The position numbers and the translations under genes are program-made. The notes beneath the pieces were generated by a model that worked only from the letters and a program-made list of their open reading frames with translations, was not told the DNA's origin and did no database searches. Shown piece by piece: positions 6,004 to 25,534 of a DNA stretch of 64,000 nt. Within the stretch, counting starts at the first letter, position 1; each line of letters begins with the position of its first letter. Source of the DNA: Hydra vulgaris (taxonomy: Eukaryota > Cnidaria > Hydrozoa > Anthoathecata > Hydridae); the NCBI RefSeq assembly GCF_038396675.1, contig NC_088921.1, forward strand, positions 21,371,001 through 21,435,000. Reading direction: 5' to 3'.

Positions 6004-6094
6004 TCTGTTCTTGATTCTTGATCTTAGGTATAAAACTGAGCTAGTGATCACCTTTAGTGAGGTCTACGTGCCTCATTAGTGATTGCTAAGGGTT

Positions 6095-6119
6095 TACCTT
6101 ACCCCTTCAACGGGTTGCC
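6095..6119 (+). other. U2 stem-loop III-like segment in the 5' UTR of element C
   Basis: Reads tttacctta-cccc then caacgggttgcc. U2 nt 129-155 of this species reads tttaccttg-ccct then ccacgggttgcc. This copy is closer to the host U2 than those in the D-type elements, in the same order and orientation. Confidence 0.65.
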
Positions 6120-6255
6120 GGTACGGCAATTTTAGTTTGGAGAGGTTTAAGGGAGATTGAGTTTTAGTGAATATTGAGTGTTTTATGAGTGTTAGGAGGT
6201 CTACTGGCCTTTAGAGTGACAGAGAGGTTATTTATACGTTGAGTATAAACTAATC

Positions 6256-7590
6256 ATGGCTTTAAAAAGTCCATTAACTTTAAACTTACCGGACAATAAT
6301 GTCCAAATTAAAAGCTATGCTCAAGCAACATCTTTGAAAACGAATGAGTTTACTAGCTTAAAAAACACACTGCTTAGTAACATCGAGAAAAATATAACTC
6401 AAGACGACATTCTTACAGCAATTGAAGATGTTGGACTTGATAAAGAGCTGGAAGGTTTTCAAATAATACGAAACGGGACTATGATGGAAATTGTAATGAG
6501 AACGGAAAAGGCAAAACATTTCCTTCAAGAGAAGGGACTTACTATAAATGGTCAACACCACCGTTTTTATAATTCCACTCCTACTAGGAATATTAGTAAG
6601 CGAGTGGCTGTGTCCGTGATAGGCCTTCCACTTGAAAAGAAGTTCTTTCCCGTCGGGAAAGCGTTAGAAGAGTTAGGCTATGGAAAACACATACATACTA
6701 GACCGGTGTTTAGACATACGCCTAAAAATAAGACGCCATATTATTCAGGGATAATAGTGGCTGTTATGGACAATCTTGAGCAGCCAATACCAAAGCAAAT
6801 AAAACTGAAAGGGTACAATGTGAGAGCAATCTATACTGGACAGGAGGAAGCAGGAAGTGTCCCAAGGGAAGAGAAACCTATCGAAGAAATAAATGAACAA
6901 GCAAAACCAAGTACAGAGACAATTAAAGAAGTAGAGGAGCAACCCGTAGATATGGTTATAGTACAAAGTATTAGTGAATCACCCGTAGAGTGTTTAGTTT
7001 TAAAGTGTAAGACACAAGAGTGCACAGAAAAAGTAATAAATGATATTCCTAAAGTAACAAATGAAACAGAAGAAGTATGCACACCAACAAGTACCAAGAA
7101 AGTCAAACTATCAATAAATACCGAAACCACCACACATAAACAAATCATACCAAAAACTACCATAGAAGAAGAAACAGAGCAAATCGTTAACATACCATCC
7201 GAAGAATTAAATAATGAACAAGCGATAGAAAACCATTACTATGATAATAGACACGAAAGAAAAGAAATCGATGTATCTGGTGTTCAATTACCAAAAGAAT
7301 TTGAAACCATGAGTTACCAAGATATATGGTGCTACAACGCAAATTATTTTCACGGCTTTAACAAAAATGATTGCAGCGAAGAAGATCTAAAAATTTATGT
7401 TCGGTATAGAAGAGCTGAGTATGAAAAACAAAAAATGGAACGAAGACAAGAGTATGAGGAAGAAAAACAAGCAAAACGGAAATTGTACGAAGAAGAAAAA
7501 ATAGCTAGACGAAAGGCAATAAAGGAGGCTAAGCTTCTACAAAATCAGCAACAGAAAAATTTCATAAATAACCGAGACGAGTGGTATTAG
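6256..7590 (+). CDS. ORF1 protein of element C (444 aa), single C-terminal module
   Basis: Intact ORF in an otherwise ORF2-less element. It has the SYAQA motif near residue 20, a first RRM-like region (about 38-105), and a second (about 117-196) with VSVIGLP and YYSGIIVAVM. A 140-residue hinge rich in T, E and V follows, then one copy of the 45-residue module (345-389, LPKEFETM to RRAEY) and a highly charged helix of K/R/E repeats (about 390-430), likely a coiled coil or single alpha helix. Related ORF1s have two modules ending in EW; here the terminal residue is Y. The start is ATG at 6256 (taatcATGGC, favourable context). Role inferred: RNA binding and assembly of the element ribonucleoprotein. 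Confidence 0.88.
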   Translation: MALKSPLTLNLPDNNVQIKSYAQATSLKTNEFTSLKNTLLSNIEKNITQDDILTAIEDVGLDKELEGFQIIRNGTMMEIVMRTEKAKHFLQEKGLTINGQHHRFYNSTPTRNISKRVAVSVIGLPLEKKFFPVGKALEELGYGKHIHTRPVFRHTPKNKTPYYSGIIVAVMDNLEQPIPKQIKLKGYNVRAIYTGQEEAGSVPREEKPIEEINEQAKPSTETIKEVEEQPVDMVIVQSISESPVECLVLKCKTQECTEKVINDIPKVTNETEEVCTPTSTKKVKLSINTETTTHKQIIPKTTIEEETEQIVNIPSEELNNEQAIENHYYDNRHERKEIDVSGVQLPKEFETMSYQDIWCYNANYFHGFNKNDCSEEDLKIYVRYRRAEYEKQKMERRQEYEEEKQAKRKLYEEEKIARRKAIKEAKLLQNQQQKNFINNRDEWY

Positions 7591-7895
7591 AAAAATGTCT
7601 CAAAAATAAAAAATTAAAAATAAAAAAACATTTAGAATTACAAAGAAAAATTTAAAAAAACTAAAACAAAAATTAAAAAAAAATACTAAAAAACCAAACA
7701 AATACTTTTACTTACCTTAAAAATATATACATAACTTTAATATTAAAGCTTCCTAGCTTCGGCTTTGTAGCAATATTAAATACTTTTAATTAGGCAATTA
7801 AAAATAATAACATTTCCAAACAAACAAAAAATAAACCTATCTTCTAGGACCCTGTGTAAGCCTGATATCAGCTTCAGGTATACCTAGTTGTATAG

Positions 7896-7923
<28 letters not shown>

Positions 7924-7926
<3 letters not shown>

Positions 7927-8080
7927 TCTGTTCTTATCAGTTTAATATCTGGTACGCCGGCACAGTCCGGCTCATATATTAATCTGATTTTTGGCATTAG
8001 GTCATGGGATCATAGGTTTACCTTGCCCTGACCACGGGTTGCCTCGGCTTTGCACTACTGCTGAGCGCGGCCCAGATTGG
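7924..8080 (+). pseudogene. U2: U2 snRNA 3' part (nt 36-192) after element C
   Basis: Begins at gtatctgttcttatc after the poly(A) of element C and is consensus to its 3' end. It has no promoter or 5' domain, so it should not make U2. Confidence 0.95.
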
Positions 8081-8189
8081 AAAAAAGAAAATATCTTCAC
8101 TTTCAGAGTGTCTAACATCGCTAATGGTCTCAGCTGCTGCTGCTGATGATGCTGCTGATGATGACGACGACGAAAATGATTAGACGTTC

Positions 8190-8210
8190 TAATTCAAACC
8201 ACAAGTACAT
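8190..8210 (+). promoter_or_regulatory. Putative proximal sequence element (PSE) of the U2 gene at 8255
   Basis: taattcaaaccacaagtac sits at -65 to -45 from the U2 start, the position of PSEs in animal snRNA genes, and its TAATTC...ACC core recalls insect PSEA. It is repeated unchanged in nearly every unit. The assignment is by position and resemblance only. Confidence 0.45.
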
Positions 8211-8254
8211 TGTTGAAGACGGCGTCAGTCCGACTATGTCTGCAGTGTTCAGTT

Positions 8255-8446
8255 ATCGCTTCTCGGCCTAATGGCTAAGATCAAGTGTAGTATCTGTTCT
8301 TATCAGTTTAATATCTGGTACGCCGGCACAGTCCGGCTCATATATTAATCTGATTTTTGGCATTAGGTCATGGGATCATAGGTTTACCTTGCCCTAACCA
8401 CGGGTTGCCTCGGCTTTGCACTACTGCTGAGCGCGGCCCAGATTGG
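8255..8446 (+). ncRNA. U2: U2 spliceosomal snRNA gene, intact
   Basis: U2 pairs with the intron branch point in the spliceosome. The 5' end ATCGCTTCTCGGCC and the segment GGCTAAGATCAAGTGTAGTATCTG match U2 of other animals almost base for base. GTAGTA, the branch-point recognition sequence, is at nt 33-38. Stem-loop IIb is the GCCGG/CCGGC pair near nt 69-83, the Sm site ATTTTTGG is at about nt 99-106, and stem-loop IV has CTCGGC/GCTGAG closing a loop with TTGCACTAC. The 3' end at 192 is my estimate from folding and from the human length of 188. One change from consensus is G142A. It is flanked by a normal promoter and spacer and lies between elements C and D. Confidence 0.95.
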
Positions 8447-8620
8447 AAAAAAGAAAATATCTTCACTTTCAGAGTGTCTAACATCGCTAATGGTCTCAGC
8501 TGCTGCTGCTGATGATGCTGCTGATGATGACGACGACGAAAATGATTAGACGTTCTAATTCAAACCACAAGTACATTGTTGAAGACGGCGTCAGTCCGAC
8601 TATGTCTGCAGTGTTCAGTT

Positions 8621-8670
8621 ATCGCTTCTCGGCCTAATGGCTAAGATCAAGTGTAGTATCTGTTCTTATC
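8621..8670 (+). pseudogene. U2: U2 snRNA 5' part (nt 1-50), interrupted by element D
   Basis: Consensus U2 5' half with full promoter, joined to element D after ttatc. A transcript from here would start as U2 and continue into the element leader. Confidence 0.95.
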
Positions 8671-8710
8671 TTAGTTTAATTAGGCGAGCTAGTGATCCAT
8701 ACTTGTATAA

Positions 8711-8730
8711 AGAAGGTCTACTGGCCTTCT
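8711..8730 (+). other. 5' UTR hairpin 1 of element D (AGAAGG/CCTTCT, loop tctactgg)
   Basis: Perfect 6-bp stem. The same loop recurs in hairpin 2 (8918-8933, GAGG/CCTC) and in the leaders of C, E, F, G and H, while the stem bases change in pairs. Confidence 0.55.
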
Positions 8731-8745
8731 GAGTGTATTGAGTGT

Positions 8746-8773
8746 TACCTTGCTCCCTCCACGGGTTGCAAGG
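8746..8773 (+). other. U2 stem-loop III-like segment in the 5' UTR of element D
   Basis: TACCTTGC, 5 nt of different sequence, then CCACGGGTTGC, followed by AAGG so that ACCTTGC pairs with GCAAGGT. Host U2 nt 131-154 has TACCTTGC...CCACGGGTTGC. Upstream, agtttaat at 8673-8680 equals U2 nt 51-58, so two U2 blocks occur in U2 order at nearly U2 spacing. Confidence 0.65.
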
Positions 8774-8967
8774 TTAAGTTTTTCTGAAAAAGTTTTCGGA
8801 CTTTTAGTTTATTTTTCGAGTGGTTGAGAGTTTAATAGAGATCGTAGATCTCAGTGAGTTTGTTTAGTGTGAGTGAGTTTTAGTAAGAGGTTGGTTAGAC
8901 CTCTTTTGAGGTCTACTGGCCTCTGAGTGGCTGAGAATATAATATATACAGGTAGAACTATTTTGCC

Positions 8968-10461
8968 ATGCTACTATTAGATCCAAGAAATACCATGGAA
9001 ATAGATACAGAAATAGCGGCTGCTACAGCCCAGAACAAATGCTATATGCAAGCTGCAAACAAAACCTATGCACAAGCAGCAACCAATAACGATAACGCAT
9101 ACGACTATAGCGCCCTAAATAATACTCTCTTATGTAAGGTTAACGCTAAAATTAGCGACAACGATTTCTTAGTTGCTATTGAAGAGGCCGGATATGATAA
9201 ATACCTATTCGGATACCAACAAATCCGTAACGGCTCAATAATTGAGATCGTTATGAAAAACGACAAAATTAAAAAAACGATTCTTGAAAAAGGATTAAAT
9301 ATGAATGGTGTAAACCACCGATTCTACCAATCTACTCCATCGAGAAACATTAGTAAAAAGGTAACTGTTTCCATCCTCGGGTTACCAATTGAAAAAAGTA
9401 ATTATCCTGCTGGTAAATTTCTAGAACAGCTCGGATACGGAAAACATATTAAAACTAAACCTATATTTAAAAAAACACCAAACAACAAAACGCTCTATTA
9501 CTCCGGCATCATAGTTGCGATTATGGACAAATTAGAAAAACCAATTCCAAGGTTTATAAAACTGAATGGGTATGAGGTTAGGGCAATCTACAACGGCCAG
9601 GAAGATGTGGGAAAGCCACAAAACAAAGTAAACCCGAATCAGAAAAACGAAGACAAAGTTGTTTGCGAATCAACTAGTAGCATTCACCAAGTTATACCAC
9701 CTGTAGAAACACAAAATCGGAATATTATTAAAACGACCGAGGATATGGGAATAGAAAAGGAAACGAATGAACATGAGAAGAATTTAGAAATACAAATAAC
9801 AGTAGAAAATATAGAACTTCAGGCAGCAAACGAAAACAGAATTAGTAAAAACGATGAAGATAATAGCGAAGTCGATGAAAGAAATGAAAATGATAATGAA
9901 CAGGATAGTAGTAAAGTAAGTGATATAGCTAAGAGTAAAGATGCTGATGGCCAAAGTGAAAAAGATGTCTTCAGCAAAGAAGATGACAATCTGGACAACG
10001 TGGAAATACCTACAGAATATAGACACATGTCACATATAGACAAGGTCAATTATAACTGGAAGACCTTTAAAAATTTTGACCGACTAAACTGTAGCAAGGA
10101 AGAATTACTAAAATTTAAAGCCTTTAAGAAACTCGAATGGCAACAATATAACACTGCAAAAATGAATTACTATAAATCACTCAAAGATCTGGAAAAAAAA
10201 ATAGGAAAAATTACACCACTTATTTTCGAAAAAATGGACTCCAGTGAAATATATTCATTTAATATGAAAGAATTTAAAAATTTTAACATCAAAACCGCAG
10301 ATAACACCGAAAAGACAAAATATACTGCTTGTAAAAGGGCAGAATGGAAACAACGAAAGAAGGAATTTTTCCAATATATTAAAAATCATGAAAGAAAACA
10401 AGAAGAACGTAATTTAAAAAAGCAAACGTATCTAGCCAAGAGAGCAAAAATAACACCTTAA
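8968..10461 (+). CDS. ORF1 protein of element D (497 aa), RRM-like with two C-terminal modules
   Basis: Intact ORF. Residues 1-45 hold the TYAQAA motif. A first RRM-like region spans about 52-120, and a second about 132-210 with VSILGLP (134-140) and YYSGIIVAIM (177-186). An acidic, S/D/E/N-rich hinge covers about 215-345. Then come two ungapped 45-residue repeats, 347-391 and 416-460. Each starts with P two residues in, has an M at position 8, YN or FN near 17-18, an FKNF motif at 21-24, and ends in EW. A basic tail (461-497) closes the protein. Two ATGs are possible: 8968 and 8995 (taccATGGAA, better context); both are conserved in the ORF1 at 16680. By family it binds element RNA. The modules match nothing I recognise; they could bind nucleic acid or a partner protein. 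Confidence 0.9.
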   Translation: MLLLDPRNTMEIDTEIAAATAQNKCYMQAANKTYAQAATNNDNAYDYSALNNTLLCKVNAKISDNDFLVAIEEAGYDKYLFGYQQIRNGSIIEIVMKNDKIKKTILEKGLNMNGVNHRFYQSTPSRNISKKVTVSILGLPIEKSNYPAGKFLEQLGYGKHIKTKPIFKKTPNNKTLYYSGIIVAIMDKLEKPIPRFIKLNGYEVRAIYNGQEDVGKPQNKVNPNQKNEDKVVCESTSSIHQVIPPVETQNRNIIKTTEDMGIEKETNEHEKNLEIQITVENIELQAANENRISKNDEDNSEVDERNENDNEQDSSKVSDIAKSKDADGQSEKDVFSKEDDNLDNVEIPTEYRHMSHIDKVNYNWKTFKNFDRLNCSKEELLKFKAFKKLEWQQYNTAKMNYYKSLKDLEKKIGKITPLIFEKMDSSEIYSFNMKEFKNFNIKTADNTEKTKYTACKRAEWKQRKKEFFQYIKNHERKQEERNLKKQTYLAKRAKITP

Positions 10462-10715
10462 AAAGAAAATTAAAAAGCAGCATTAAATAAAAAAATTTTA
10501 AACAAAACAATTAAAAAAGTATTAAACAAAAAATTATGATGTTATAATGTCGCATCCAAGAGCTACCTTATTAACATTATTTAACTTGAAAAAATATATC
10601 AACAAAAATAAAAATATAAAATTAACAAAACATAATAAAAATATAAAACAATTAAAACAAAAACAAAAAATATAAAATGAATAATCAACCTACTAGGGCC
10701 TTTGACTAGTAGGTA

Positions 10716-10754
<39 letters not shown>

Positions 10755-10757
<3 letters not shown>

Positions 10758-11501: not shown

Positions 11502-13546
11502 TTAGTTTAATTAGGCGAGCTAGTGATCCATACTTGTATAAAGAAGGTCTACTGGCCTTCTGAGTGTATTGAGTGTTACCTTGCTCCCTCCACGGGTTGC
11601 AAGGTTAAGTTTTTCTGAAAAAGTTTTCGGACTTTTAGTTTATTTTTCGAGTGGTTGAAGGTTTAATAGAGATCGTAGATCTCAGTGAGTTTGTTTAGTG
11701 TGAGTGAGTTTTAGTAAGAGGTTGGTTAGACCTCTTTTGAGGTCTACTGGCCTCTGAGTGGCTGAGAATATAATATATACAGGTAGAACTATTTTGCCAT
11801 GCTACTATTAGATCCAAGAAATACCATGGAAATAGATACAGAAATAGCGGCTGCTACAGCCCAGAACAAATGCTATATGCAAGCTGCAAACAAAACCTAT
11901 GCACAAGCAGCAACCAATAACGATAACGCATACGACTATAGCGCCCTAAATAATACTCTCTTATGTAAGGTTAACGCTAAAATTAGCGACAACGATTTCT
12001 TAGTTGCTATTGAAGAGGCCGGATATGATAAATACCTATTCGGATACCAACAAATCCGTAACGGCTCAATAATTGAGATCGTTATGAAAAACGACAAAAT
12101 TAAAAAAACGATTCTTGAAAAAGGATTAAATATGAATGGTGTAAACCACCGATTCTACCAATCTACTCCATCGAGAAACATTAGTAAAAAGGTAACTGTT
12201 TCCATCCTCGGGTTACCAATTGAAAAAAGTAATTATCCTGCTGGTAAATTTCTAGAACAGCTCGGATACGGAAAACATATTAAAACTAAACCTATATTTA
12301 AAAAAACACCAAACAACAAAACGCTCTATTACTCCGGCATCATAGTTGCGATTATGGACAAATTAGAAAAACCAATTCCAAGGTTTATAAAACTGAATGG
12401 GTATGAGGTTAGGGCAATCTACAACGGCCAGGAAGATGTGGGAAAGCCACAAAACAAAGTAAACCCGAATCAGAAAAACGAAGACAAAGTTGTTTGCGAA
12501 TCAACTAGTAGCATTCACCAAGTTATACCACCTGTAGAAACACAAAATCGGAATATTATTAAAACGACCGAGGATATGGGAATAGAAAAGGAAACGAATG
12601 AACATGAGAAGAATTTAGAAATACAAATAACAGTAGAAAATATAGAACTTCAGGCAGCAAACGAAAACAGAATTAGTAAAAACGATGAAGATAATAGCGA
12701 AGTCGATGAAAGAAATGAAAATGATAATGAACAGGATAGTAGTAAAGTAAGTGATATAGCTAAGAGTAAAGATGCTGATGGCCAAAGTGAAAAAGATGTC
12801 TTCAGCAAAGAAGATGACAATCTGGACAACGTGGAAATACCTACAGAATATAGACACATGTCACATATAGACAAGGTCAATTATAACTGGAAGACCTTTA
12901 AAAATTTTGACCGACTAAACTGTAGCAAGGAAGAATTACTAAAATTTAAAGCCTTTAAGAAACTCGAATGGCAACAATATAACACTGCAAAAATGAATTA
13001 CTATAAATCACTCAAAGATCTGGAAAAAAAAATAGGAAAAATTACACCACTTATTTTCGAAAAAATGGACTCCAGTGAAATATATTCATTTAATATGAAA
13101 GAATTTAAAAATTTTAACATCAAAACCGCAGATAACACCGAAAAGACAAAATATACTGCTTGTAAAAGGGCAGAATGGAAACAACGAAAGAAGGAATTTT
13201 TCCAATATATTAAAGATCATGAAAGAAAACAAGAAGAACGTAATTTAAAAAAGCAAACGTATCTAGCCAAGAGAGCAAAAATAACACCTTAAAAAGAAAA
13301 TTAAAAAGCAGCATTAAATAAAAAAATTTTAAACAAAACAATTAAAAAAGTATTAAACAAAAAATTATGATGTTATAATGTCGCATCCAAGAGCTACCTT
13401 ATTAACATTATTTAACTTGAAAAAATATATCAACAAAAATAAAAATATAAAATTAACAAAACATAATAAAAATATAAAACAATTAAAACAAAAACAAAAA
13501 ATATAAAATGAATAATCAACCTACGAGGGCCTGTGTCTAGTAGGTG
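11502..13546 (+). mobile_element. Element E: ORF1-only U2 element, near-identical to D, lacking poly(A) and right U2 flank
   Basis: Begins 2831 bp after the start of D, exactly the length of D plus the two following U2 units, and matches D almost base for base, including UTRs. It ends after ctagtaggtg with no poly(A) and no U2, and joins element F directly. Its terminal hairpin differs slightly (cctacgag and ctagtagg), and its 3' end reads gggcctgtgtctag, like the tails of C and G. It has a U2-like leader segment at 11577-11604. The E copy arose either by unequal exchange with the D unit or as a fresh insertion. Confidence 0.88.
11799..13292 (+). CDS. ORF1 protein of element E (497 aa)
   Basis: Identical to the ORF1 at 8968 except N473D, in the basic tail. 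It has the same two RRM-like regions, acidic hinge and two 45-residue modules (347-391 and 416-460). Intact frame; same choice of starts (11799 or the in-frame ATG at codon 10). So close a match over almost 500 codons means a very recent common copy and says little about selection. Confidence 0.9.
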   Translation: MLLLDPRNTMEIDTEIAAATAQNKCYMQAANKTYAQAATNNDNAYDYSALNNTLLCKVNAKISDNDFLVAIEEAGYDKYLFGYQQIRNGSIIEIVMKNDKIKKTILEKGLNMNGVNHRFYQSTPSRNISKKVTVSILGLPIEKSNYPAGKFLEQLGYGKHIKTKPIFKKTPNNKTLYYSGIIVAIMDKLEKPIPRFIKLNGYEVRAIYNGQEDVGKPQNKVNPNQKNEDKVVCESTSSIHQVIPPVETQNRNIIKTTEDMGIEKETNEHEKNLEIQITVENIELQAANENRISKNDEDNSEVDERNENDNEQDSSKVSDIAKSKDADGQSEKDVFSKEDDNLDNVEIPTEYRHMSHIDKVNYNWKTFKNFDRLNCSKEELLKFKAFKKLEWQQYNTAKMNYYKSLKDLEKKIGKITPLIFEKMDSSEIYSFNMKEFKNFNIKTADNTEKTKYTACKRAEWKQRKKEFFQYIKDHERKQEERNLKKQTYLAKRAKITP

Positions 13547-15595
13547 TTTAATTAGGCGAGCTAGTGATCCATACTGTATAAAGAAGGTCTACTGGCCTTC
13601 TGAGTGTATTGAGTGTTACCTTGCTACCTCCACGGGTTGCAAGGCCAAGATTTTCTAAAAAAGTTTTCGGACTTTTAGTTTATTTTTTGAGTGGTTGAGA
13701 GTTTTATAGAGATCGTAGATCTCAGTGAGTTTTTTGAGTGTGAGTGAGTTTTAGTAAGAGGTTGGTTAGACCTCTTTTGAGGTCTACTGGCCTCTGAGTG
13801 GCTGAGAATATAATATATACAGGTAGAACTATTTTGCCATGCTACTATTAGATCCAAGAAATACCATGGAAATAGATACAGAAATAGCGGCTGCTACAGC
13901 CCAGAACAAATGCTCTATTCAAGCTGCAAATAAAACCTATGCACAAGCAGCAACCAATAACGATAACGCATACGACTATAGCGCCCTAAATAATACTCTC
14001 TTATGTAAGGTTAACGCTAAAATTAGCGACAACGATTTCTTAGTTGCTATTGAAGAGGCCGGATATGATAAATACCTATTCGGATACCAACAAATCCGTA
14101 ACGGCTCAATAATTGAGATTGTTATGAAAAACGACAAAATTAAAAAAACGATTCTTGAAAAAGGATTAAATATTAATGGTGTAAACCACCGATTCTACCA
14201 ATCTACTCCATCGAGAAACATTAGTAAAAAGGTAACTGTTTCCATCCTCGGGTTACCAATTGAAAAAAGTAACTATCCTGCTGGTAAATTTCTAGAGCAG
14301 CTCGGATACGGAAAACATATTAGAACTAAACCTATATTTAAAAAAACACCAAACAACAAAACGCTCTATTACTCCGGTATCATAGTTGCGATTATGGACA
14401 AAATAGACAAACCAATCCCAAGGTTTATAAAACTGAATGGGTATGAGGTTAGGGCAATCTACAACGGCCAGGAAGATGTGGGAAAGCCTCAAAACAAAGT
14501 AAACCCGAATCAGAAAAACGAAGACAAATTTGTTTGCAAATCACCTAGTAGCATTCCCCAAGTTATACCACCTCTAGGAACACAAAATCAGAACATTATT
14601 AAAACGACCGAGGATAAGGGAATAGAAAAGGAAACGAATGAACATGAGAAGAATTTAGAAATACAAATAACAGTAGAAAATATAGCACTTCAGGCAGCAA
14701 ACGAAAACAAATTTAGTAAAAACGATAAAGATAATAGCGAAGTCGATGAAAGAAATGAAGATGATAATGAACAGGATAGTAGTAAAGTAAGTGATATAGC
14801 TAAGAGTAAAGATGCTGATGGCCAAAGTGAAAAAGATGTCTTCAGCAAAGAAGATGACAATCTGGACAACGTTGAAATACCTACAGAATATAGACACATG
14901 TCACATATAGACAAAGTCAATTATAACTGGAAGACCTTTAAAAATTTTGACCGACTAAACTGTAGCAAGGAAGAATTACTAAAATTCAGAGCCTTTAAGA
15001 AACTCGAATGGGAACAATATAACACTGCAAAAATGAATAAATATAAATCACTCAAAGACCTAGAAAAAAAAATAGGAAAACTTACACCACTTGGTTTCGA
15101 AAAAATGGACTCCAGTGAAATATACTCATTTAATATGAAAGAATTTAAAAATTTTAACATCAATACCGCAAATATAAATGAAAAGACAAAATATATTGCT
15201 TGTAAGAGAGCAGAATGTAAACAACGAAAAAAGGAATTTTTCCAATATATTAAAGATCATGAAAGAAAACAAGAAGAACGTAATTTAAAAAAGCAAACGT
15301 ATCAAGCCAAGAGAGCAAAAATAACACCTTAAGAAGAAAATTAAAAAGCAACATTTAATAAAAAACAATTTTAAAGAAAACAATTAAAAAAGTATTAAAC
15401 AAAAAATTATAATGTTATAATGTCGCATCCAAGAGCTACCCTATTAACATTATTTAACTTAAAAAATATATATCAACAAAAATAAAAATATAAAATTAAC
15501 AAAACATAATAAAAATATATAACAATTAAAACAAAAATAAAAAATATAAAATAAATAATCAACCTACTAGGCCCTTGGACTAGTTGGTAGATAAA

Positions 15596-15636
<41 letters not shown>
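13547..15636 (+). mobile_element. Element F: ORF1-only U2 element fused head-to-tail to element E
   Basis: Starts at tttaattaggcg, lacking the first four bases (ttag) of the D-type 5' end, directly after the 3' end of E. It ends in a poly(A) of about 38 nt followed by U2 from nt 36 (15637). The terminal hairpin is CCTACTAG/CTAGTTGG, with one mismatch shared with element H. The leader has the GGTCTACTGGCC hairpins and a U2-like segment (13617-13644, here ctacctcc in the loop). It is closer to H than to D/E in ORF1, so E and F are different lineages joined together. Confidence 0.9.
13839..15332 (+). CDS. ORF1 protein of element F (497 aa), W lost in module 2
   Basis: Intact ORF with the D-type architecture. 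Differences from D are spread through the hinge and modules (for example N-rich changes near 440-447). The conserved EW at the end of module 2 is EC here (residue 460, KRAECKQRK), the only double-module copy in the window without that tryptophan, so this copy may be impaired although open. The first module keeps FKNFDRLNC and EW. A CSIQAA sequence replaces CYMQAA near residue 25. Confidence 0.9.
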   Translation: MLLLDPRNTMEIDTEIAAATAQNKCSIQAANKTYAQAATNNDNAYDYSALNNTLLCKVNAKISDNDFLVAIEEAGYDKYLFGYQQIRNGSIIEIVMKNDKIKKTILEKGLNINGVNHRFYQSTPSRNISKKVTVSILGLPIEKSNYPAGKFLEQLGYGKHIRTKPIFKKTPNNKTLYYSGIIVAIMDKIDKPIPRFIKLNGYEVRAIYNGQEDVGKPQNKVNPNQKNEDKFVCKSPSSIPQVIPPLGTQNQNIIKTTEDKGIEKETNEHEKNLEIQITVENIALQAANENKFSKNDKDNSEVDERNEDDNEQDSSKVSDIAKSKDADGQSEKDVFSKEDDNLDNVEIPTEYRHMSHIDKVNYNWKTFKNFDRLNCSKEELLKFRAFKKLEWEQYNTAKMNKYKSLKDLEKKIGKLTPLGFEKMDSSEIYSFNMKEFKNFNINTANINEKTKYIACKRAECKQRKKEFFQYIKDHERKQEERNLKKQTYQAKRAKITP

Positions 15637-16383: not shown

Positions 16384-16460
16384 TTAGTTTAATTAGGCGA
16401 GCTAGTGATCCTAACTAGTATATAGAAGGTCTACTGGCCTTCTGAGTGTTTAGTGAGTAT

Positions 16461-16488
16461 TACCTTGCGCCTTCCACGGGTTGCAAGG
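16461..16488 (+). other. U2 stem-loop III-like segment in the 5' UTR of element G
   Basis: TACCTTGC-gcctt-CCACGGGTTGC followed by AAGG. The flanking U2-identical blocks are kept while the 5 nt between them differ from D (tccct) and from U2. Confidence 0.65.
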
Positions 16489-16679
16489 ACGAGTGATATA
16501 AGAGTGTACTGGTTCCTTTATTTAGTGTATTGAGTGACTGAGAGATTGTAGAGATCGTAGATCTCAGTGAGTTAAAGAGAGTGTGAGTTTAAAGAGGTTG
16601 ATTAGACCTCATTAGAGGTCTACTGGCCTCAGAGCGTCCGAGTAGTTAAGAGTGTATTATATAGTTAGTACTATTTACC

Positions 16680-18488
16680 ATGTTACAAATCGACCCAAAA
16701 ACGTCCATGGAGGTAGTTACTGATATTGGTGCTGCTACAGCCCAAACTATTGTTAATGCACAGGCTGCTTGTAAAACCTATGCCCAAGTTACAACAAACA
16801 ACAACTACATTAACGACCACAAATCCCTTAAAAATACCCTTTTGTGTAAAGTCCAAACTAAAGTTAGTGACAACGATTTTCTATTAGCTATTGAAGAGGC
16901 AGGATATGACAAATATCTATTTGGTTATCAACAAATTAGAAATGGCTTAGTTATCGAAATTGTTATGAAAAATGATTTAATTAAACATACAATTCTTGAA
17001 AAAGGTATCAATATCAATGGTGTAAAACATCCTTTCTACCCCTCTACCCCAAACAGGAATATCAACAAAAGAGTGACAATATCAATACTAGGTTTGCCAA
17101 TAGAAGAAAGCAATTTTCCAGCTGGGAAGTACCTCGAGGAGCTGGGATATGGAAGGCACTTACGAACTAAGCCTTTACTAAGAAGTACACCTAAAAACAA
17201 AACGCCATATTATTCCGGTATTATAGTCGTGATTATGGACAACCTTCAAAAGCCAATCCCTAGATTCATTAACTTAAATGGTTATGAAGTTAGGGCAATT
17301 TACAACGGTCAAGAAGATGTGGGAAGACCACAAAAAAAATATACAACTAACCAACAAAAAGATCCAAACGATTATAACAAACCATCTAATAATAATCGCT
17401 TGGACACAACTTATGTAGAAATTGAAAATCCAAATCACATTATAATAAATGAAAGCACGGTAATAGAAAACGAAGTAAATAAATATAAAGAGAAAGTACA
17501 AACACAAACATTAGAAACGGCTACAGAATCCCAACTGAAAACAAATCTCGAAAGAAGAACAACGAACGATTTGGTTACAAGTAAAACCAACGAAGTCAAA
17601 AAGGTAGCAGATAAAATAAACGAACAGGATAGTGAAGAAGAGGATAGTCTCAAGGATGATAATGAAGATGATGATAATAGTAATGATGGCGATGATAGTG
17701 AAGATAGGAATGATTATAAAGATAAAGATGATAGTAAAGATGACGATGGAAAAAATGATGACGATGATAGTAAAGATGGCAATGAAAGTAAAGATAATGA
17801 TGATAGTAAGGATAACGATGAAAATAGTGATGGCGATGGTAGTAAAGATGACGATGATAGGAAAGATGGCAATCCTAGTAAGGATAAAGATAATAGTAAA
17901 GATGATAACGATAGTAAAGATAAAGATGATAGTAAAGATGATAATAATAGTAAAGTTAATGCTGATAGTCAAGACGACCATGATTGTAATGATAATAATA
18001 GCAATAATGAAAGTAGTGAGGACGAATGTGAAGTGCCTGATGAATTTTTAAAATTGTACCACTTAGACAAAGTGGATTATAATTGGAAACATTTTAAGAA
18101 ATTTGATAGACTGAACTGCAGTGAAGAAGAACTGAAAAAATTTAAAGTGTATAAAAAATATGAATGGGTACAATATGAAAGAGCTGTAGGCATGTACAAA
18201 TCATTTGAAAAAAGAACTGATCAACTTATTCCAATTGCATTTCAGCAAATGGATTCAGGTGATATGTATTCATACAACATGAAAGAATTCAAAAACGTTA
18301 ATAGAAACACTGAGGATGAAACCTTAAGAAATAGATATATAGCCTGTAGAAAAGCGGAGTGGGATCAAAGGAGAAAGGAATATTCACAGTTTCAACCTGA
18401 CCATGAAAAAAAACAAGAAGAGCGTGCAATTAAAAAACAAATCTACCAATCTAAAAAAGCAAAACTAACACCACAAGCTGAAAGTTAA
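16680..18488 (+). CDS. ORF1 protein of element G (602 aa) with expanded Asp/Lys/Ser hinge
   Basis: Intact ORF, about 105 residues longer than the D type. TYAQV lies near residue 33, RRM-like regions at about 52-120 and 132-210 (ISILGLP, YYSGIIVVIM), and module 1 at 452-496 and module 2 at 517-561, both ending in EW, followed by a basic tail. The gain in length is almost all in the hinge (316-449), a chain of short D-D-S-K-D repeats encoded by gatgatagtaaagat-like units. Such acidic repeats can mimic nucleic acid or space domains; here slippage at the DNA level explains the expansion. Start ATG at 16680 (taccATGTTA), with a second in-frame ATG at codon 10 conserved with D. Confidence 0.9.
   Translation: MLQIDPKTSMEVVTDIGAATAQTIVNAQAACKTYAQVTTNNNYINDHKSLKNTLLCKVQTKVSDNDFLLAIEEAGYDKYLFGYQQIRNGLVIEIVMKNDLIKHTILEKGININGVKHPFYPSTPNRNINKRVTISILGLPIEESNFPAGKYLEELGYGRHLRTKPLLRSTPKNKTPYYSGIIVVIMDNLQKPIPRFINLNGYEVRAIYNGQEDVGRPQKKYTTNQQKDPNDYNKPSNNNRLDTTYVEIENPNHIIINESTVIENEVNKYKEKVQTQTLETATESQLKTNLERRTTNDLVTSKTNEVKKVADKINEQDSEEEDSLKDDNEDDDNSNDGDDSEDRNDYKDKDDSKDDDGKNDDDDSKDGNESKDNDDSKDNDENSDGDGSKDDDDRKDGNPSKDKDNSKDDNDSKDKDDSKDDNNSKVNADSQDDHDCNDNNSNNESSEDECEVPDEFLKLYHLDKVDYNWKHFKKFDRLNCSEEELKKFKVYKKYEWVQYERAVGMYKSFEKRTDQLIPIAFQQMDSGDMYSYNMKEFKNVNRNTEDETLRNRYIACRKAEWDQRRKEYSQFQPDHEKKQEERAIKKQIYQSKKAKLTPQAES
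17625..18026 (+). repeat. Degenerate gatagtaaagatgat-type repeat encoding the acidic hinge
   Basis: About 400 bp of imperfect 12-21 bp units reading D/K/S/N in the ORF1 frame. Other frames give Met/Ile/Lys-rich or Ile/Thr-rich chance ORFs over the same bases. Confidence 0.8.
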
Positions 18489-18892
18489 AAATCTTTGAAC
18501 AGCACACAAAGTTATTTTACCAATCAAAAAATGTAAAAACAGAAACAAAAGTATATCAAAAAAAAAAATAAAAAAAAAAAAAAAAAAAAATACGATTAAA
18601 CCATAATAAGACATCCATTACTATTTAAAAACAAAAGTCTTATGTATTAAAGAGTCACATTAAAAAACTACTCAAATAGGACTTGAGAGACAAAAATACG
18701 AAACTTAAAAATCCAAATTAAACTAAAAATACAAAACACTAAAACAAAAAACAAAAATATAAAAAATGAAACTAGAAAACAAAATATAAAACATATAACT
18801 AAAAAAATAAATAAAAAATATAAAACAAAAACTGCCATCTAGGGCCCTGTGTAAGTCTGGTTTCAGCAACAGGTCACTCTAGCTTGTTGGTA

Positions 18893-18928
<36 letters not shown>

Positions 18929-18931
<3 letters not shown>

Positions 18932-19309: not shown

Positions 19310-20148
19310 TGTATTTATTTGCTTGTTTGTTTACATGAGATTAAAAATTTAAATGATTGTTATTCAATATTAGTTTTACTCTCTATTTTTAAAAAAAAGT
19401 ATACTTTTTCTGAAATTAAAAGAAGTTTAATTTATAATTAAGATGTTCTAGTATGAATTAGTTATTAATAATATAAATTAAGAGTAATTCCATGTCAAAA
19501 CAACCAATTTTTTTTTAAAATGCAAGCCTATGTCCATGGATTTTCTTTATATTTTTACCATAGTTTGTAAATTGTAAAATAAGATAAATCCCAGAATTTC
19601 GGGGTCTAACTCCCAACCGTTCGTGAGTGGTGGTTGCTTTGATTTTGGCTACTATTGTTGTTTTGGTCGTTTTCCGCCATTTTTGAATTTCTCCTTATAA
19701 GGCCGGGTCTTTAAACATGTGAATTCTAAAAGTGGGTGACTTGGTTAATCTCAAGGTGAGGAATTTGAATGTGTGAATAAAAAACTCATTTTATAGTTAA
19801 GGGGTGCCTAAATATCAATTATAAGTGTTGAAATAGTGGACACCTGCCCCTGTAAAATTTTTGGGTGTGCGGTGGGTTTTTTAAGCTTAAAATTTCAGAT
19901 TAGATCATTGTATGTTTGAAGAACATTGTGTGAAAAATCATTTCTGCCAAATACATAGTTTAAAAATTAAATGAAAAATATTACAAAAAAAGCAAATATA
20001 GTATATTTCGCTTAGCGTAGTATTCAAAATAAATAAAAATAATGCATACTCGAATTGATATACATTTTTTTATAATATATCCATTAAAAAATTATTGATT
20101 TACAAATATATACTTATTAATTTTGTAAAAATCTTTTTTTAAAAGTTC
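19310..20148 (+). other. Noncoding segment of unknown origin at the 5' end of element I
   Basis: AT-rich and without an open frame of note. It contains a less AT-rich patch near 19590-19880 (cccagaatttcggggtc, gaggaatttgaatgtgtg, ggacacctgcccctg). It is joined precisely to U2 nt 50 on its left and to the RT frame on its right, so it arrived with the insertion or replaced the 5' part of the element later. It could be a template-jumped cellular RNA, or an unrelated transposon plus a deletion. Confidence 0.7.
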
Positions 20149-22200
20149 AAGAGAACAGCCATAATAAGTCTACTCCCAAAAGAGGGAGATCTAAAACAAC
20201 TTAAGAACTGGAGACCAATTTCCTTGTTATGTGCTGATTACAAGATCATCACTAAGGCCCTTGCAATTCGGCTATCAAAGGTTCTTGAGAAAATACTAGA
20301 ACCATCGCAAACCTGCTCTGTTCCTAATCGTACAATCTTTTCAAATATCTTCCTAGCTAGGGATCTAATAGAGTATACCAATCAGAAGAGTAGTAAAAGT
20401 TTTATTATATCAATTGACCAAGAGAAGGCATTTGATAAACTTGATCGAAAATTTCTTTTTAAAGTAATTGAGCGTTTTAATTTTGGTTGTATGTTTACAA
20501 GAGCCTTAAAACAAACGCTCAAAAATACACAATCCCTTATTATAAACAATGGGCACCTAAGCAAACCCTTCAAAGTTAATAGAGGAGTAAGGCAAGGTGA
20601 CCCTATATCACTTATGCTTTACTGTATTGCGGCAGAGACCCTGTCTCTATCAATAAAAAAGAATCAAAATATCGATGGAATTAAAATACCTGGAAATAAT
20701 ATTCCTCTCAAAATTTTGCAATATGCAGATGACACAATGATCACTGCACAAAATATCTCATCCATCGATGAAATTTTTAAAGAAATAGCAAACTTTGAAC
20801 TTGCCACTGGGTCAAACATAAACAAGGCAAAATCAAAAGCTCTGGCACTTGGAGGCTTTGACCATCTGGCATATAAAAACTACATAAATAAAGGATTTTA
20901 TAAAGATCATGGTATAAACTGGGTCAATCATACCGGCTTAAGAATACTAGGCATAACATTTAATACTGACCTTGCTTATTCAGCAACAATAAATTGGAAA
21001 GAAACTATAGAAAAATTAAAAAAAAACACTAGAATCTTTAAATACAGAAACGTATCACTGAGATGCAAAGGAATTTTTTTAAATACCCTGGCACTTTCGA
21101 AGATATGGTACTTAGCTAACGTTTTCCCACTAAATAAAATCTTTGAAAATAAAATAAAAAAAGAAATCTCGATCTACTTGTGGCAAAGTGAATATGCCGA
21201 GCCCATCAAGCGCGACATTCTTTACCTTCCAACTATAAATGGAGGTTTAGGACTAATTGATCCAGCTAAACAAAGTATCTCACTCAGGATAAAACATCTT
21301 CTACAGATGCAACATGTCGAAAACCCTCATGAAAGCCTTTACCTCCAAAAATACTTACTTGCCACCTCGCTACTAAAACTTGCAAACCAAAGTTATAAAC
21401 AATGGAAATTTTTAACACTAAATAATTATCCTAAAACATTAAACAGTCCTCCCTTCTATTATCGTGATATTGTAGATGTCCTAAAAAAAAATGAACACCT
21501 ATTCCTACTAATAAAAAAATCATCGCGCAACATATATAAGACACTCTTAAATAATGAAAATAATACTTACATAAAAAAAGTACAAACATATTGGGAAGAT
21601 AAATTGCAAAAACAACTGCCTTGGAGAACCATATGGCTAAGATCTTTTAACTCGTATGCCCAAGGCCCAAGTCAAAATACTCAGTGGAGAATGTTACAAA
21701 ATAGTCTTCCAACAATGGAAAAACTACGGCTATGGAGGAAGAATAGAGGACGAGGTAGTTCACTCTGTAGGACTTGTGGTCTACCAGAAACAACGCTGCA
21801 TCCCTTTACATCCTGTAAGATAGCGAGGACAGTGTGGAGCAAACTAAAAGTAGTATACAAAACATTGCAACCAACGCAACCATTTAATATAGTCCATACC
21901 GTTCTATTCACTGATATCGACGAATTTAATTGGAACAACATAAAGGCAAAAATAATAACGACCATCACAAATATCACTACTACGGAGCTATGGAGAGCAC
22001 GAAATATGAAAATAAAAGAAAATAAAACCATAAAACCAAAAACCATAGTTGAAAATATAAAACGAGAACTAAAGTACATATGGGATGTAAAATATAAAAA
22101 ACATCAAAGATTGAATGACATAAAAAACTTCCATAAAAAATACTCCCTTAACAATGCAATAAGTCAGGCAAACTCTGACAAGTTAGTTTTTAATCTATAA
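20149..22200 (+). pseudogene. 5'-truncated ORF2 (RT + CCHC) of element I
   Basis: About 683 codons, open to the stop; in-frame stop TAA at 20140 just upstream. Homology to the ORF2 at 1313 begins at the RTA..SLLPK motif, so endonuclease and the first RT blocks are missing. Present are NWRPISLL, motif A IDQEKAFD, motif B RGVRQGDP, motif C YADD, SNINKAKSKA, and the C-terminal knuckle C-x2-C-x7-H-x4-C (CRTCGLPETTLHPFTSC). It has no start codon of its own, though the frame is uninterrupted, which points to recent insertion. Sequence differs from element A throughout, at perhaps half the positions in places, so two autonomous lineages use this site. Confidence 0.9.
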
Positions 22201-22364
22201 AGCAATAAGATGTGATCTCAACTTCTCGTTTTTTCGATTTCCTCGCATTTCCGCTTTTCGTTTATGTTTTGATCACCAAAAATAAAAATTAAATATAAGT
22301 TAAAAAATTAAAAATAAAAACCAAAAAAAAAAAAAAAAAAAAAAAAAATAAAAAAAAAAAAAAA

Positions 22365-22521: not shown

Positions 22522-22695
22522 AAAAAAGAAAATATCTTCACTTTCAGAGTGTCTAACATCGCTAATGGTCTCAGCTGCTGCTGCTGATGATGCTGCTGAT
22601 GATGACGACGACGAAAATGATTAGACGTTCTAATTCAAACCACAAGTACATTGTTGAAGACGGCGTCAGTCCGACTATGTCTGCAGTGTTCAGTT

Positions 22696-22887: not shown

Positions 22888-23061
22888 AAAAAAGAAAATA
22901 TCTTCACTTTCAGAGTGTCTAACATCGCTAATGGTCTCAGCTGCTGCTGCTGATGATGCTGCTGATGATGACGACGACGAAAATGATTAGACGTTCTAAT
23001 TCAAACCACAAGTACATTGTTGAAGACGGCGTCAGTCCGACTATGTCTGCAGTGTTCAGTT

Positions 23062-23253
23062 ATCGCTTCTCGGCCTAATGGCTAAGATCAAGTGTAGTAT
23101 CTGTTCTTATCAGTTTAATATCTGGTACGCCGGCACAGTCCGGCTCATATATTAATCTGATTTTTGGCATTAGGTCATGGGATCATAGGTTTACCTTGCC
23201 CTGACCACGGGTTGCCTCGGCTTTGCACTACTGCTGAGCGCGGCCCAGATTGG
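23062..23253 (+). ncRNA. U2: U2 snRNA gene, consensus
   Basis: Full copy exactly 366 bp after the previous one, no change from consensus seen. Confidence 0.96.
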
Positions 23254-23427
23254 AAAAAAGAAAATATCTTCACTTTCAGAGTGTCTAACATCGCTAATGG
23301 TCTCAGCTGCTGCTGCTGATGATGCTGCTGATGATGACGACGACGAAAATGATTAGACGTTCTAATTCAAACCACAAGTACATTGTTGAAGACGGCGTCA
23401 GTCCGACTATGTCTGCAGTGTTCAGTT

Positions 23428-23477
23428 ATCGCTTCTCGGCCTAATGGCTAAGATCAAGTGTAGTATCTGTTCTTATC
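23428..23477 (+). pseudogene. U2: U2 snRNA 5' part (nt 1-50), interrupted by element H
   Basis: Consensus 5' half with promoter, joined to element H after nt 50. The matching 3' half is missing on the other side of H. Confidence 0.95.
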
Positions 23478-25534
23478 TTAGTTTAATTAGGCGAGCTAGT
23501 GATCCATACTTGTATAAAGAAGGTCTACTGGCCTTCTGAGTGTATTGAGTGTTACCTTGCTCCCTCCACGGGTTGCAAGGCCAAGTTTTTCTGAAAAAGT
23601 TTTCGGACTTTAGTTTATTTTTTGAGTGGTTTTATAGAGATCGTAGATCTCAGTGAGTTTTTTTTGGTGTGAGTGAGTTTTAGTAAGAGGTTGGTTAGAC
23701 CTCTTTTGAGGTCTACTGGCCTCTGAGTGGCTGAGAATATAATATATACAGGTAGAACTATTTAGCCATGCTACTATTAGATCCAAGAAATACCATGGAA
23801 ATAGATACAGAAATAGCGGCTGCTACAGCCCAGAACAAATGCTATATGCAAGCTGCAAACAAAACCTATGCACAAGCAGCAACCAATAACGATAACGCAT
23901 ACGACTATAGCGCCCTAAATAATACTCTCTTATGTAAGGTTAACGCTAAAATTAGCGACAACGATTTCTTAGTTGCTATTGAAGAGGCCGGATATGATAA
24001 ATACCTATTCGGATACCAACAAATCCGTAACGGCTCAATAATTGAGATCGTTATGAAAAACGACAAAATTAAAAAAACGATTCTTGAAAAAGGATTAAAT
24101 ATTAATGGTGTAAACCACCGATTCTACCAATCTACTCCATCGAGAAACATTAGTAAAAAGGTAACTGTTTCCATCCTCGGGTTACCAATTGAAAAAAGTA
24201 ACTATCCTGCTGGTAAACTTCTAGAGCAGCTCGGATACGGAAAACATATTAGAACTAAACCAATATTTAAAAAAACACCAAACAACAAAACGCTCTATTA
24301 CTCCGGTATCATAGTTGCGATTATGGACAAATTAGAAAAACCAATCCCAAGGTTTATAAAACTGAATGGGTATGAGGTTAGGGCAATCTACAACGGCCAG
24401 GAAGATGTGGGAAAGCCACAAAACAAAGTAAACAAGAATCAGAAAAACGAAGACAAAGTTGTTTGCAAATCACCTAGTAGCATTCCCCAAGTTATACCAC
24501 CTCTAGGAACACAAAATCAGAACATTATTAAAACGACCGAGGAGAAGGGAATAGAAAAGGAAACGAATGAACATGAGAAGAATTTAGAAATACAAATAAC
24601 AGTAGAAAATATAGCACTTCAGGCAGCAAACGAAAACAAATTTAGTAAAAACGATGAAGATAATAGCGAAGTCGATGAAAGAAATGAAGATGATAATGAA
24701 CAGGATAGTAGTAAAGTAAGTGATATAGCTAAGAGTAAAGATGCTGATGGCCAAAGTGAAAAAGATGTCTTTAGCAAAGAAGATGACAATCTGGACAACG
24801 TGGAAATACCTACAGAATATAGACACATGTCACATATAGACAAAGTCAATTATAACTGGAAGAGCTTTAAAAATTTTGACCGACTAAACTGTAGCAAGGA
24901 GGAATTATTAAAATTCAAAGCCTTTAAGAAACTCGAATGGGAACAATATAACACTGCAAAAATGAATAAATATAAATCACTCAAAGACCTAGAAAAAAAA
25001 ATAGGAAAACTTACACCACTTGGTTTCGAAAAAATGGACTCCAGTGAAATATACTCATTTAATATGAAAGAATTTAAAAATTTTAACATCAATACCGCAA
25101 ATATAAATGAAAAGACAAAATATATTGCTTGTAAGAGAGCAGAATGGAAACAACGAAAAAAGGAATTTTTTCAATATATTAAAGATCATGAAAGAAAACA
25201 AGAAGAACGTAATTTAAAAAAGCAAACGTATCATGCCAAGAGAGCAAAAACAACACCTTAAGAAGAAAATTAAAAAGCGACATTAAATAAAAAACAAATT
25301 TAAAGAAAACAATTAAAAAAGTATTAAACAAAAAATTATGATGTTATAATGTCGCATCCAAGAGCTACCTTATTAACATTATGTTACTTAAAAAAATATA
25401 TCAACAAAAATAAAAATATAAAATTAACAAAACATAATAAAAATATATAACAATTAAAACAAAAATAAAAAATATAAAATAAATAATCAACCTACTAGGG
25501 CCTTGGACTAGTTGGTAGATAATAGAAAAAAAAA
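23478..25534 (+). mobile_element. Element H: ORF1-only U2 element whose right flank is deleted
   Basis: D-type leader (290 bp, U2-like segment at 23553-23580, both GGTCTACTGGCC hairpins), ORF1 at 23768-25261 and a 3' UTR ending CCTACTAG/CTAGTTGG, then only about 9 A. The A run passes directly into cgaaaatgattagacg, the middle of the U2 spacer, so the right target duplication, the U2 3' half and half of the spacer are gone. It closes the invaded part of the array. Confidence 0.9.
23768..25261 (+). CDS. ORF1 protein of element H (497 aa)
   Basis: Intact ORF of the D type, closest to the one at 13839 (shared IPQVIPPLGTQNQN in the hinge and IGKLTPLGFEKM at the start of module 2) but with tryptophan at the end of both modules, so it is the best-preserved member of the F/H branch. 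It has RRM-like regions, acidic hinge, two 45-residue modules and a basic tail in the same positions as in the ORF1 at 8968. The start is at 23768 or the in-frame ATG at codon 10. Confidence 0.9.
   Translation: MLLLDPRNTMEIDTEIAAATAQNKCYMQAANKTYAQAATNNDNAYDYSALNNTLLCKVNAKISDNDFLVAIEEAGYDKYLFGYQQIRNGSIIEIVMKNDKIKKTILEKGLNINGVNHRFYQSTPSRNISKKVTVSILGLPIEKSNYPAGKLLEQLGYGKHIRTKPIFKKTPNNKTLYYSGIIVAIMDKLEKPIPRFIKLNGYEVRAIYNGQEDVGKPQNKVNKNQKNEDKVVCKSPSSIPQVIPPLGTQNQNIIKTTEEKGIEKETNEHEKNLEIQITVENIALQAANENKFSKNDEDNSEVDERNEDDNEQDSSKVSDIAKSKDADGQSEKDVFSKEDDNLDNVEIPTEYRHMSHIDKVNYNWKSFKNFDRLNCSKEELLKFKAFKKLEWEQYNTAKMNKYKSLKDLEKKIGKLTPLGFEKMDSSEIYSFNMKEFKNFNINTANINEKTKYIACKRAEWKQRKKEFFQYIKDHERKQEERNLKKQTYHAKRAKTTP

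Follow-up and report, generated by a model that had tools for sequence, protein, structure and literature searches.

Keno, a Tx1-group non-long terminal repeat (non-LTR) retrotransposon of the apurinic/apyrimidinic endonuclease (APE) type that is specific for U2 small nuclear RNA (snRNA) genes, has been reported from hydra (PMC4640811). Elements without a second open reading frame (ORF2) or pol are described from other hosts: the tRNA gene-targeting TRE5-A.2 of Dictyostelium has no ORF2 of its own and moves by mobilisation in trans (PMC5391098), HeT-A of Drosophila forms telomeric head-to-tail arrays without pol, its Pol having been proposed to come from another element (PMC4467039), and mammalian half-L1 (HAL1) elements are non-autonomous, encode only ORF1p and have several origins (PMC5753468). 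A 64,000-nucleotide (nt) stretch of the Hydra vulgaris genome (C2:21371001-21435000, referred to as the window; contigs are written C1, C2 and so on) lies in a tandem array of 366-bp U2 snRNA gene units, in which elements A to I are all inserted at one U2 position. Elements C-H, which keep ORF1 and lack ORF2, very probably represent one monophyletic, non-autonomous lineage of U2 snRNA gene-specific, APE-type, Keno-like non-LTR retrotransposons with the life cycle proposed below.

As in Keno, the 3′ junctions with U2 fall at the Keno/Utopia site, and ORF2 of element A encodes an APE endonuclease and an L1-type reverse transcriptase (RT). The agreement holds within a few nucleotides and not letter for letter, because the published downstream start, nt 39, follows Phytophthora numbering (PMC4640811). 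Utopia shares the U2 insertion site but has a restriction-like endonuclease, unlike the APE endonuclease of A (PMC4640811). The described Keno has an endonuclease, whereas C-H have no ORF2 and carry a C-terminal ORF1 domain absent from the autonomous ORF1s read; since APE and RT are missing from the ORF1-only elements, it is the kinship of ORF1 and the choice of target, and not the set of genes, that make C-H Keno-like. TRE5-A.2 is likewise site-specific, with ORF1 kept and ORF2 lost, and the supply in trans that is shown there is presumed for C-H. It derives from TRE5-A.1, whereas C-H belong to a diversified clade that carries a domain of its own; an autonomous parent sharing ORF1 and ends, as in TRE5-A.2, was not found among the loci read and six autonomous 3′ ends. 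HeT-A, which belongs to the jockey group, a different clade, also lacks pol and has a restricted target; its attachment is telomeric, in contrast to the internal insertions of C-H in U2 units.

An earlier note on this DNA, made from the letters alone, had offered HAL1 as the known parallel. The likeness stands insofar as ORF1 is intact, ORF2 absent and poly(A) present in the ORF1-only U2 elements too; it ends at origin, with several for HAL1 and apparently one for the U2 lineage, whose ORF1 showed no sequence-level relation to L1 ORF1p in Pfam and PDB profile searches. HAL1 is not known to be site-specific. The U2 ORF1-only lineage works like HAL1 and is not classed as HAL1. The same note knew of no ORF1-only element specific for U2, and none was found, but site-specific ones are known in TRE5-A.2 and HeT-A. 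No report of an ORF1-only Keno or of a U2-headed Keno RNA was found in a literature search of titles and abstract openings, with subscription journals mostly outside it. New within that literature are a diversified ORF1-only clade of apparently single origin with a private, selected domain, and evidence for the movement of U2-specific elements as U2-headed RNAs. ORF1-only derivatives of long interspersed nuclear elements tend, in our impression, to be treated as short-lived by-products. Here the role of ORF1 for an RNA without ORF2 becomes testable in one locus, where a deep, diversified and recently active lineage stands beside candidate helpers, and the off-array copies point to an expression route for an snRNA-gene-specific element, namely the snRNA gene's own start site, with the snRNA 5′ end carried along.

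The absence of ORF2 was surveyed in C2:21.18-21.38 Mb joined to the window, with 191 kb read and ORF2 sought by an uncapped tblastn. This revealed 42 ORF1 clusters: 32 full-size with the C-terminal domain, 3 truncated, 6 followed by ORF2 (A0, A and K1-K4, with broken frames in some) and 1 incomplete at the edge of the sequence read. None of the 32 ORF1-only copies has its own ORF2 downstream; in 30 of them the 204-442 nt from the ORF1 match to poly(A) and U2 nt 35 or 37 are too short for one, and the other two, E and H, also gave no ORF2 by tblastn. Poly(A) is joined to U2 nt 35-37 in 30/32 ORF1-only and 6/6 autonomous copies, and ORF1 is intact in 19 of the 32 (D 12/25, C 3/3, G 2/2, J 2/2). 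The earlier note had given C-H a complete leader, an intact ORF1, a 3′ tail and no trace of ORF2. Their ORF1s are indeed open over 444, 497 or 602 codons, lengths that in our judgement are not due to chance in DNA of 33% GC, and no ORF2 remnant is present, but E has no poly(A) and the right flank of H is rearranged.

Genome-wide (911.5 Mb, 15 contigs), the ORF2 list comprises the best 39 of 15,627 candidates. Against this list, no ORF2 start was located within 2.6 kb of the 40 full-leader matches, taken from 84 rows of a search with the U2 head plus G leader, the others being U2-only pieces; this test is weaker than that in the array because of the limited ORF2 list. The earlier proposal that copies with these ends might mostly carry ORF2 if the idea were wrong thus met with 0/32 in the array and 0/40 among the leader matches. 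Likewise, no listed ORF2 starts within 600 nt of the first 67 of 127 C-terminal-domain matches. Nine of these 67 have a listed ORF2 start 1.7-2.4 kb downstream, and in the gap the next element's own ORF1 was read in five cases (A0, A, L043, L047, L038) and is listed in three; the ninth gap, unread, has the same spacing as the L047 case.

These ORF1s have a conserved N-terminal domain of ~162 amino acids (aa) that is common to autonomous ORF1s, followed by a variable, often acidic linker. The ORF1-only proteins end in a C-terminal domain of two ~50-aa repeats, or one repeat in C and L050, whereas most autonomous rows show, by eye, a KKRK...KR-type tail in its place. A profile of the C-terminal domain matches 9/9 ORF1-only proteins or pieces, and three of the nine (J, L050 and L063) had no part in its construction. 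The domain was found in no ORF1 directly upstream of ORF2 (19 fetched autonomous loci with ORF1, plus A0, K1, K2 and K3); among the 20 fetched autonomous loci the profile matches only at L038 and L041, and both matches belong to the preceding element. Pfam and PDB profile searches with either domain gave nothing convincing, with no Pfam family above its cut-off and a single PDB match of the N-terminal profile, to an unrelated protein (expectation value, E, 1). DUF7307 was rejected for these domains (best Pfam E 0.0017, below cut-off, in 1/7 members only), and an HMG-box likeness of the C-terminal domain, a by-eye idea, was not adopted. At C1:60603760-60604240 (L063) lies a diverged ORF1 whose C-terminal domain has one repeat, with poly(A) nearby and no U2 after it, and a weak match to the domain lies at C1:49.03 Mb; the lineage may include elements, such as L063, whose target is not U2.

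The ratio of nonsynonymous to synonymous substitution rates (dN/dS, or omega) was estimated by the Nei-Gojobori method separately for N-terminal domain, linker and C-terminal domain. In this order it was 0.12, 0.66 and 0.21 for G-J, 0.11, 1.17 and 0.31 for L049a-L049b, 0.07, 0.84 and 0.17 for L051d-J, 0.15, 1.50 and 0.23 for D-H, and saturated, 0.60 and 0.17 for C-L050. Between-subfamily pairs with finite dS ranged over 0.05-0.18 in the N-terminal domain, 0.35-2.0 in the linker and, for two-repeat pairs, 0.16-0.31 in the C-terminal domain; the linker, serving as control in the same pairs, is far less constrained than both domains. Both conserved ORF1 domains, and not the linker, are thus under purifying selection. 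Values near 1 between subfamilies, named beforehand as evidence to the contrary, do not occur in the conserved domains, which agrees with the earlier suggestion that the protein is kept because it is used. As the C-terminal domain is missing from every ORF2-bearing element read, the constraint on it must have acted in elements that were already ORF1-only.

Such constraint could also reflect a role outside transposition, with ORF1 retained as an inhibitor of autonomous elements or as a host-useful protein and the elements moving passively. The private conserved domain would suit that role, as would the excess of ORF1-only over ORF1+ORF2 copies in the array read (32 to 6). It is nevertheless an unlikely account, as recent dispersed copies with full 5′ ends indicate that the RNAs are good substrates: the copy at C8:58.31 is 100% identical to G of the window over 343 nt of head and leader, so its movement was recent, and the copy at C1:22.24 is 99% identical.

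The common descent of the ORF1-only elements was assessed on a tree of the N-terminal block, the C-terminal domain excluded. It separated 11 ORF1-only rows from 14 ORF2-bearing rows with support of 97/94 and in 96% of bootstrap trees. The 14 were taken from 26 ORF2-bearing loci read (20 fetched plus A, A0 and K1-K4); left out were near-duplicates by eye (L031, L034, L035, L047, A and K4), loci with a broken ORF1 (L038, L045) or none (L041), and distant relatives not flanked by U2 (L039, L040, L048). Among the ORF1-only elements, E was omitted as a copy of D. One clade together with a private C-terminal domain argues that the ORF1-only layout was inherited, and the earlier view that it did not result from separate deletions is upheld. 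Apparently a single diversified lineage lost ORF2 and gained the C-terminal domain once and then gave rise to the C, D, G, J, L049 and L050 types.

The alternative is repeated origin in the manner of HAL1, each short-lived subfamily descending from an autonomous parent of its own through a separate loss of ORF2. Aside from the several origins of HAL1 in mammals (PMC5753468), this could draw on the mosaic distribution of 3′ ends, one common to C and G and another to D and L049, and on the N-terminal domain of A, which is about as close to D as that of the L049 type. However, it has to place in one clade, recovered without the C-terminal domain, lineages that had separate parents, and to account for that private domain in every subfamily read and for deep divergence within the clade, with N-terminal identities of 57-62% between D and the C and L049 types; we consider it very unlikely. 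Internal priming in the A-rich ORF1-ORF2 linker was rejected as the direct source of the present elements, whose private domain and 3′ hairpins show that they are not fresh products. It could have been the original event that produced the ORF1-only form, whose A-rich tails resemble the linker of A.

Copies outside the array revealed where the mobile RNA probably starts. Sequence upstream of ORF1 was read at 12 off-array loci, and at nine of these the element starts at U2 nt 1-4, seven of them ORF1-only (C1:22.24, C12:28.35, C5:35.24, C8:58.31, C7:36.33, C3:34.77 and C3:22.73 Mb) and two autonomous (L046 at C3:24.0 and L031 at C13:4.87). In all nine the U2 head is continuous to nt 28 or 47-50 and passes into the leader, with the same head/leader junctions as in array copies (nt 47-50 for the ORF1-only and L046 types, nt 28 for the L030/L031 type). 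The DNA upstream is unrelated, and its last 29-30 nt equal the U2 promoter at 2-10 positions, where ~7.5 are expected by chance; these flanks were read directly, the 40 scored rows of a U2 spacer/promoter search lying all in the array. The remaining three loci (L039, L040 and L048, the last read over ~90 nt upstream only) are ORF2-bearing distant relatives without U2 sequence. Further leader matches at C9:42.94, C3:7.10 and C1:60.86 also start at U2 nt 1-4 according to the match list, their flanks being unread. Both flanks were read for the C1, C5 and C12 copies, which were chosen by ORF1, the other four ORF1-only copies having come from the U2 head plus leader search. Poly(A) is followed by non-U2 DNA in all three, which rules out U2 pseudogenes as their insertion sites, and target duplications follow the poly(A) in C1 (11 bp) and C12 (10 bp). 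Since off-array copies start at U2 nt 1-4 without the U2 promoter, a mobile RNA that starts at U2 +1 and is headed by U2 nt 1-28/47 is strongly supported. The right flanks of two off-array insertions, L054 and L058, resemble TAC(G/T)GAAAAAAACAC..., which also precedes the ORF1 of non-U2 elements of C1 (L039/L040) and is possibly a second preferred insertion site.

Template jumping is known for R2-type RTs, and off-array copies might also owe their U2 head to a jump of the RT onto U2 snRNA; both the fusion of E with F and the series of U2 5′ ends at C13:4.87 are jump-like. This origin is highly improbable, because the head runs unbroken into the leader at the array junction (nt 47-50, or nt 28 for the L030/L031 type), whereas a jump onto free U2 RNA would not be expected to end just there, at the target site. 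A further alternative is that copies spread chiefly through unequal exchange and gene conversion of the U2 array, to which duplicated blocks (proteins of A, C, G and I 99.8-100% identical at 21.18-21.21 Mb) and the 99.7% identity of D and E could point. Array exchange surely multiplies copies but is refuted as the sole mechanism and deserves hardly any credence as the main one, as it can produce neither the copies dispersed to other chromosomes, which show poly(A) and target duplications where these were read, nor 5′-truncated ones such as B.

Having kept only one of the usual two genes, the ORF1-only elements probably borrow the RT of another element, and A-like elements are a plausible source. 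ORF2 of A (1195 aa) contains APE (PF03372, E 1.4e-15), RT (PF00078, E 7.4e-33) and zinc-binding domains, its best PDB match is human L1 ORF2p (E 8.6e-72), and both frames are open in A and A0. Briefly, an element inserted in a U2 gene would be transcribed from that gene's promoter at U2 +1 into a polyadenylated mRNA headed by U2 nt 1-28/47. Its translation would yield an ORF1 protein joining the N-terminal domain common to autonomous elements with the lineage-specific C-terminal domain, and the ribonucleoprotein would then recruit the ORF2 protein of a co-resident ORF1+ORF2 element such as A. The ORF2 enzyme would nick U2 after nt 34-35, as the observed 3′ junctions suggest, and reverse-transcribe from the poly(A). 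The 3′ recognition is probably poly(A)-based, since poly(A) and target are the 3′ features in common. Finally, the cDNA, whose end is complementary to the U2 head, could pair with the upstream half of the target, still intact at this point, which would account for the uniform 5′ junctions.

The leaders themselves resemble U2. A match within U2 nt 124-156, which in human U2 is the stem-loop III region, was found in 9/9 ORF1-only leaders by local alignment, with scores equalled in at most 1/500 dinucleotide shuffles each, and also in autonomous K1, L030 and L042 (0/500) and weakly in K3 (21/500). The other 10 autonomous leaders gave no significant match to this region; L044 (5/500) and L032 (24/500) match U2 elsewhere, at nt 82-110. 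The core (C/A)ACGGGTTGC of this segment is kept in nearly all leaders and the flanking stems vary. An Rfam scan of the D leader alone made no U2 call, and the shuffle-tested alignment was used instead. In addition, the leader start (first ~35 nt, e.g. 6017-6048) is complementary to U2 nt 1-31, just upstream in the same RNA; the duplex energy is at or below the 5% level of shuffles in 15/23 leaders, a level missed by D, G, K1, K2, K3, L029, L030 and L043. Tentatively, the mobile RNA might be a mimic of U2 snRNA, combining U2 promoter, nt 1-47 head, complementary leader start and nt 124-156 near-copy, that perhaps draws on U2 snRNP factors to be processed, returned to the nucleus or targeted, with the private C-terminal domain perhaps capturing ORF2 protein of other elements.

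Several points weigh against the reading of C-H as a single lineage with this life cycle. Some ~191 kb of array and selected pieces were read, and the genome searches return best candidates (39 of 15,627 for ORF2). Five autonomous rows of the tree are long branches and its root was not inferred, so that a single gain and loss is the simplest but not the sole reading; N-terminal identity is 56% for A-D against 57% for L049 type-D. Many dS values are above 1 or saturated, within-type pairs give a whole-gene omega of 0.36-0.50, and C-terminal omega is 0.43 for L049a-L051c and 0.33-0.63 for the one-repeat C type against two-repeat types. Four of the seven ORF1-only off-array copies, chosen by their match to U2 head and leader, are not an unbiased sample, and off-array matches on C4, C6, C11, C13 and C15, to give examples, were left out of the flank reading. 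L031 gets to U2 nt 1 via a stutter of partial U2 5′ ends, and C5 has no convincing target duplication, only 5 A/T bases. As to supply, the ORF1-only 3′ hairpins were found at 0/6 autonomous 3′ ends read, no autonomous element with an ORF1-only-type ORF1 was found among the loci read, and we infer the use of ORF2 in trans.

The features of the window are collected in Table 1. On the right side, array insertions show poly(A) followed by U2 nt 35-36, as in C, D, F and G (AGTATCTG...). The left U2 flank extends to nt ~47-50 in ORF1-only elements and in part of the autonomous types, K1 among them, and to nt ~28-38 in the remaining autonomous types; D, E, G and H share one identical 5′ junction, U2 ...GTATCTGTTCTTATC + TTAGTTTAATTAGG. 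E is joined directly head-to-tail to F at 13546/13547, with no poly(A) or target site between, so that F has no left and E no right U2 flank. H has an A-rich end, and its right flank is mid-spacer (ACGAAAATG...). Being 99.7% identical, possibly through array duplication, D and E do not count as independent copies.

Table 1. Positions of elements and parts of elements in the window (first letter of the window = 1)
Feature	Position	Strand	Remarks
Element A, 3′ part in window, autonomous type	1..4980	+	ORF1 lacks the C-terminal domain; ORF2 (1313-4900) encodes APE endonuclease, RT and a zinc-binding domain; candidate source of ORF2 protein
Element B, 5′-truncated ORF1-only copy, subfamily J	5369..6000	+	retains C-terminal domain, tail and poly(A)
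Element C, ORF1-only, C subfamily	6013..7922	+	leader, ORF1 444 aa (6256-7590), 3′ tail, poly(A); in tandem behind B
Element D, ORF1-only, D subfamily	8672..10753	+	ORF1 497 aa (8968-10461)
Element E, ORF1-only, D subfamily	11503..13546	+	ORF1 497 aa (11799-13292); 3′ end without poly(A) or target site, fused to F
Element F, ORF1-only, D subfamily	13547..15635	+	ORF1 497 aa (13839-15332); no left U2 flank, fused to E
Element G, ORF1-only, G subfamily	16385..18927	+	ORF1 602 aa (16680-18488), acidic linker
Element H, ORF1-only, D subfamily	23479..25533	+	ORF1 497 aa (23768-25261); right flank U2 spacer, not target site
Element I, 5′-truncated ORF2 element in U2	19310..22363	+	
U2 nt 1 to ~50 left of D	8621..8671	+	same stretch is the putative 5′ head of the mobile RNA in off-array copies
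U2 nt 130-154-like segment, D leader	8745..8769	+	counterparts C 6091-6119, G 16460-16484
Conserved N-terminal ORF1 domain of D, common to autonomous ORF1s	9115..9600	+	C 6358-6843; G 16827-17312
C-terminal domain of D ORF1, two ~50-aa repeats, ORF1-only elements only	10000..10458	+	G 18027-18485; C 7282-7587, one repeat
Hairpin-like sequence at the 3′ end of D, ahead of poly(A)	10689..10713	+	by eye; different ones in other subfamilies

Subfamily J, to which the truncated B belongs, has an ORF1 of 530-531 aa, for example at C2:21278251. The linker of the G ORF1 contains an 18-bp tandem repeat (17655-17993) that encodes an acidic, Asp/Ser-rich stretch. The E-F join (13520-13570) resembles what an RT template jump might leave, and at L031:600-717 several partial repeats of the U2 5′ end precede U2 nt 1-28, as if the RT had stuttered. 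In element I, ~830 bp between the left U2 flank and the truncated ORF2 (19312-20140) have no match to other elements of the window. The near-identical recurrence of A, B, C, G and I upstream at C2:21.18-21.21 Mb and a switch of strand of the U2 units near C2:21.34 Mb indicate that the array has undergone large rearrangements. The U2 gene to the right of A (4981-5147) bears a small internal duplication (AGTTTAATATCAGTTTAAAATGG), and this copy is therefore damaged.

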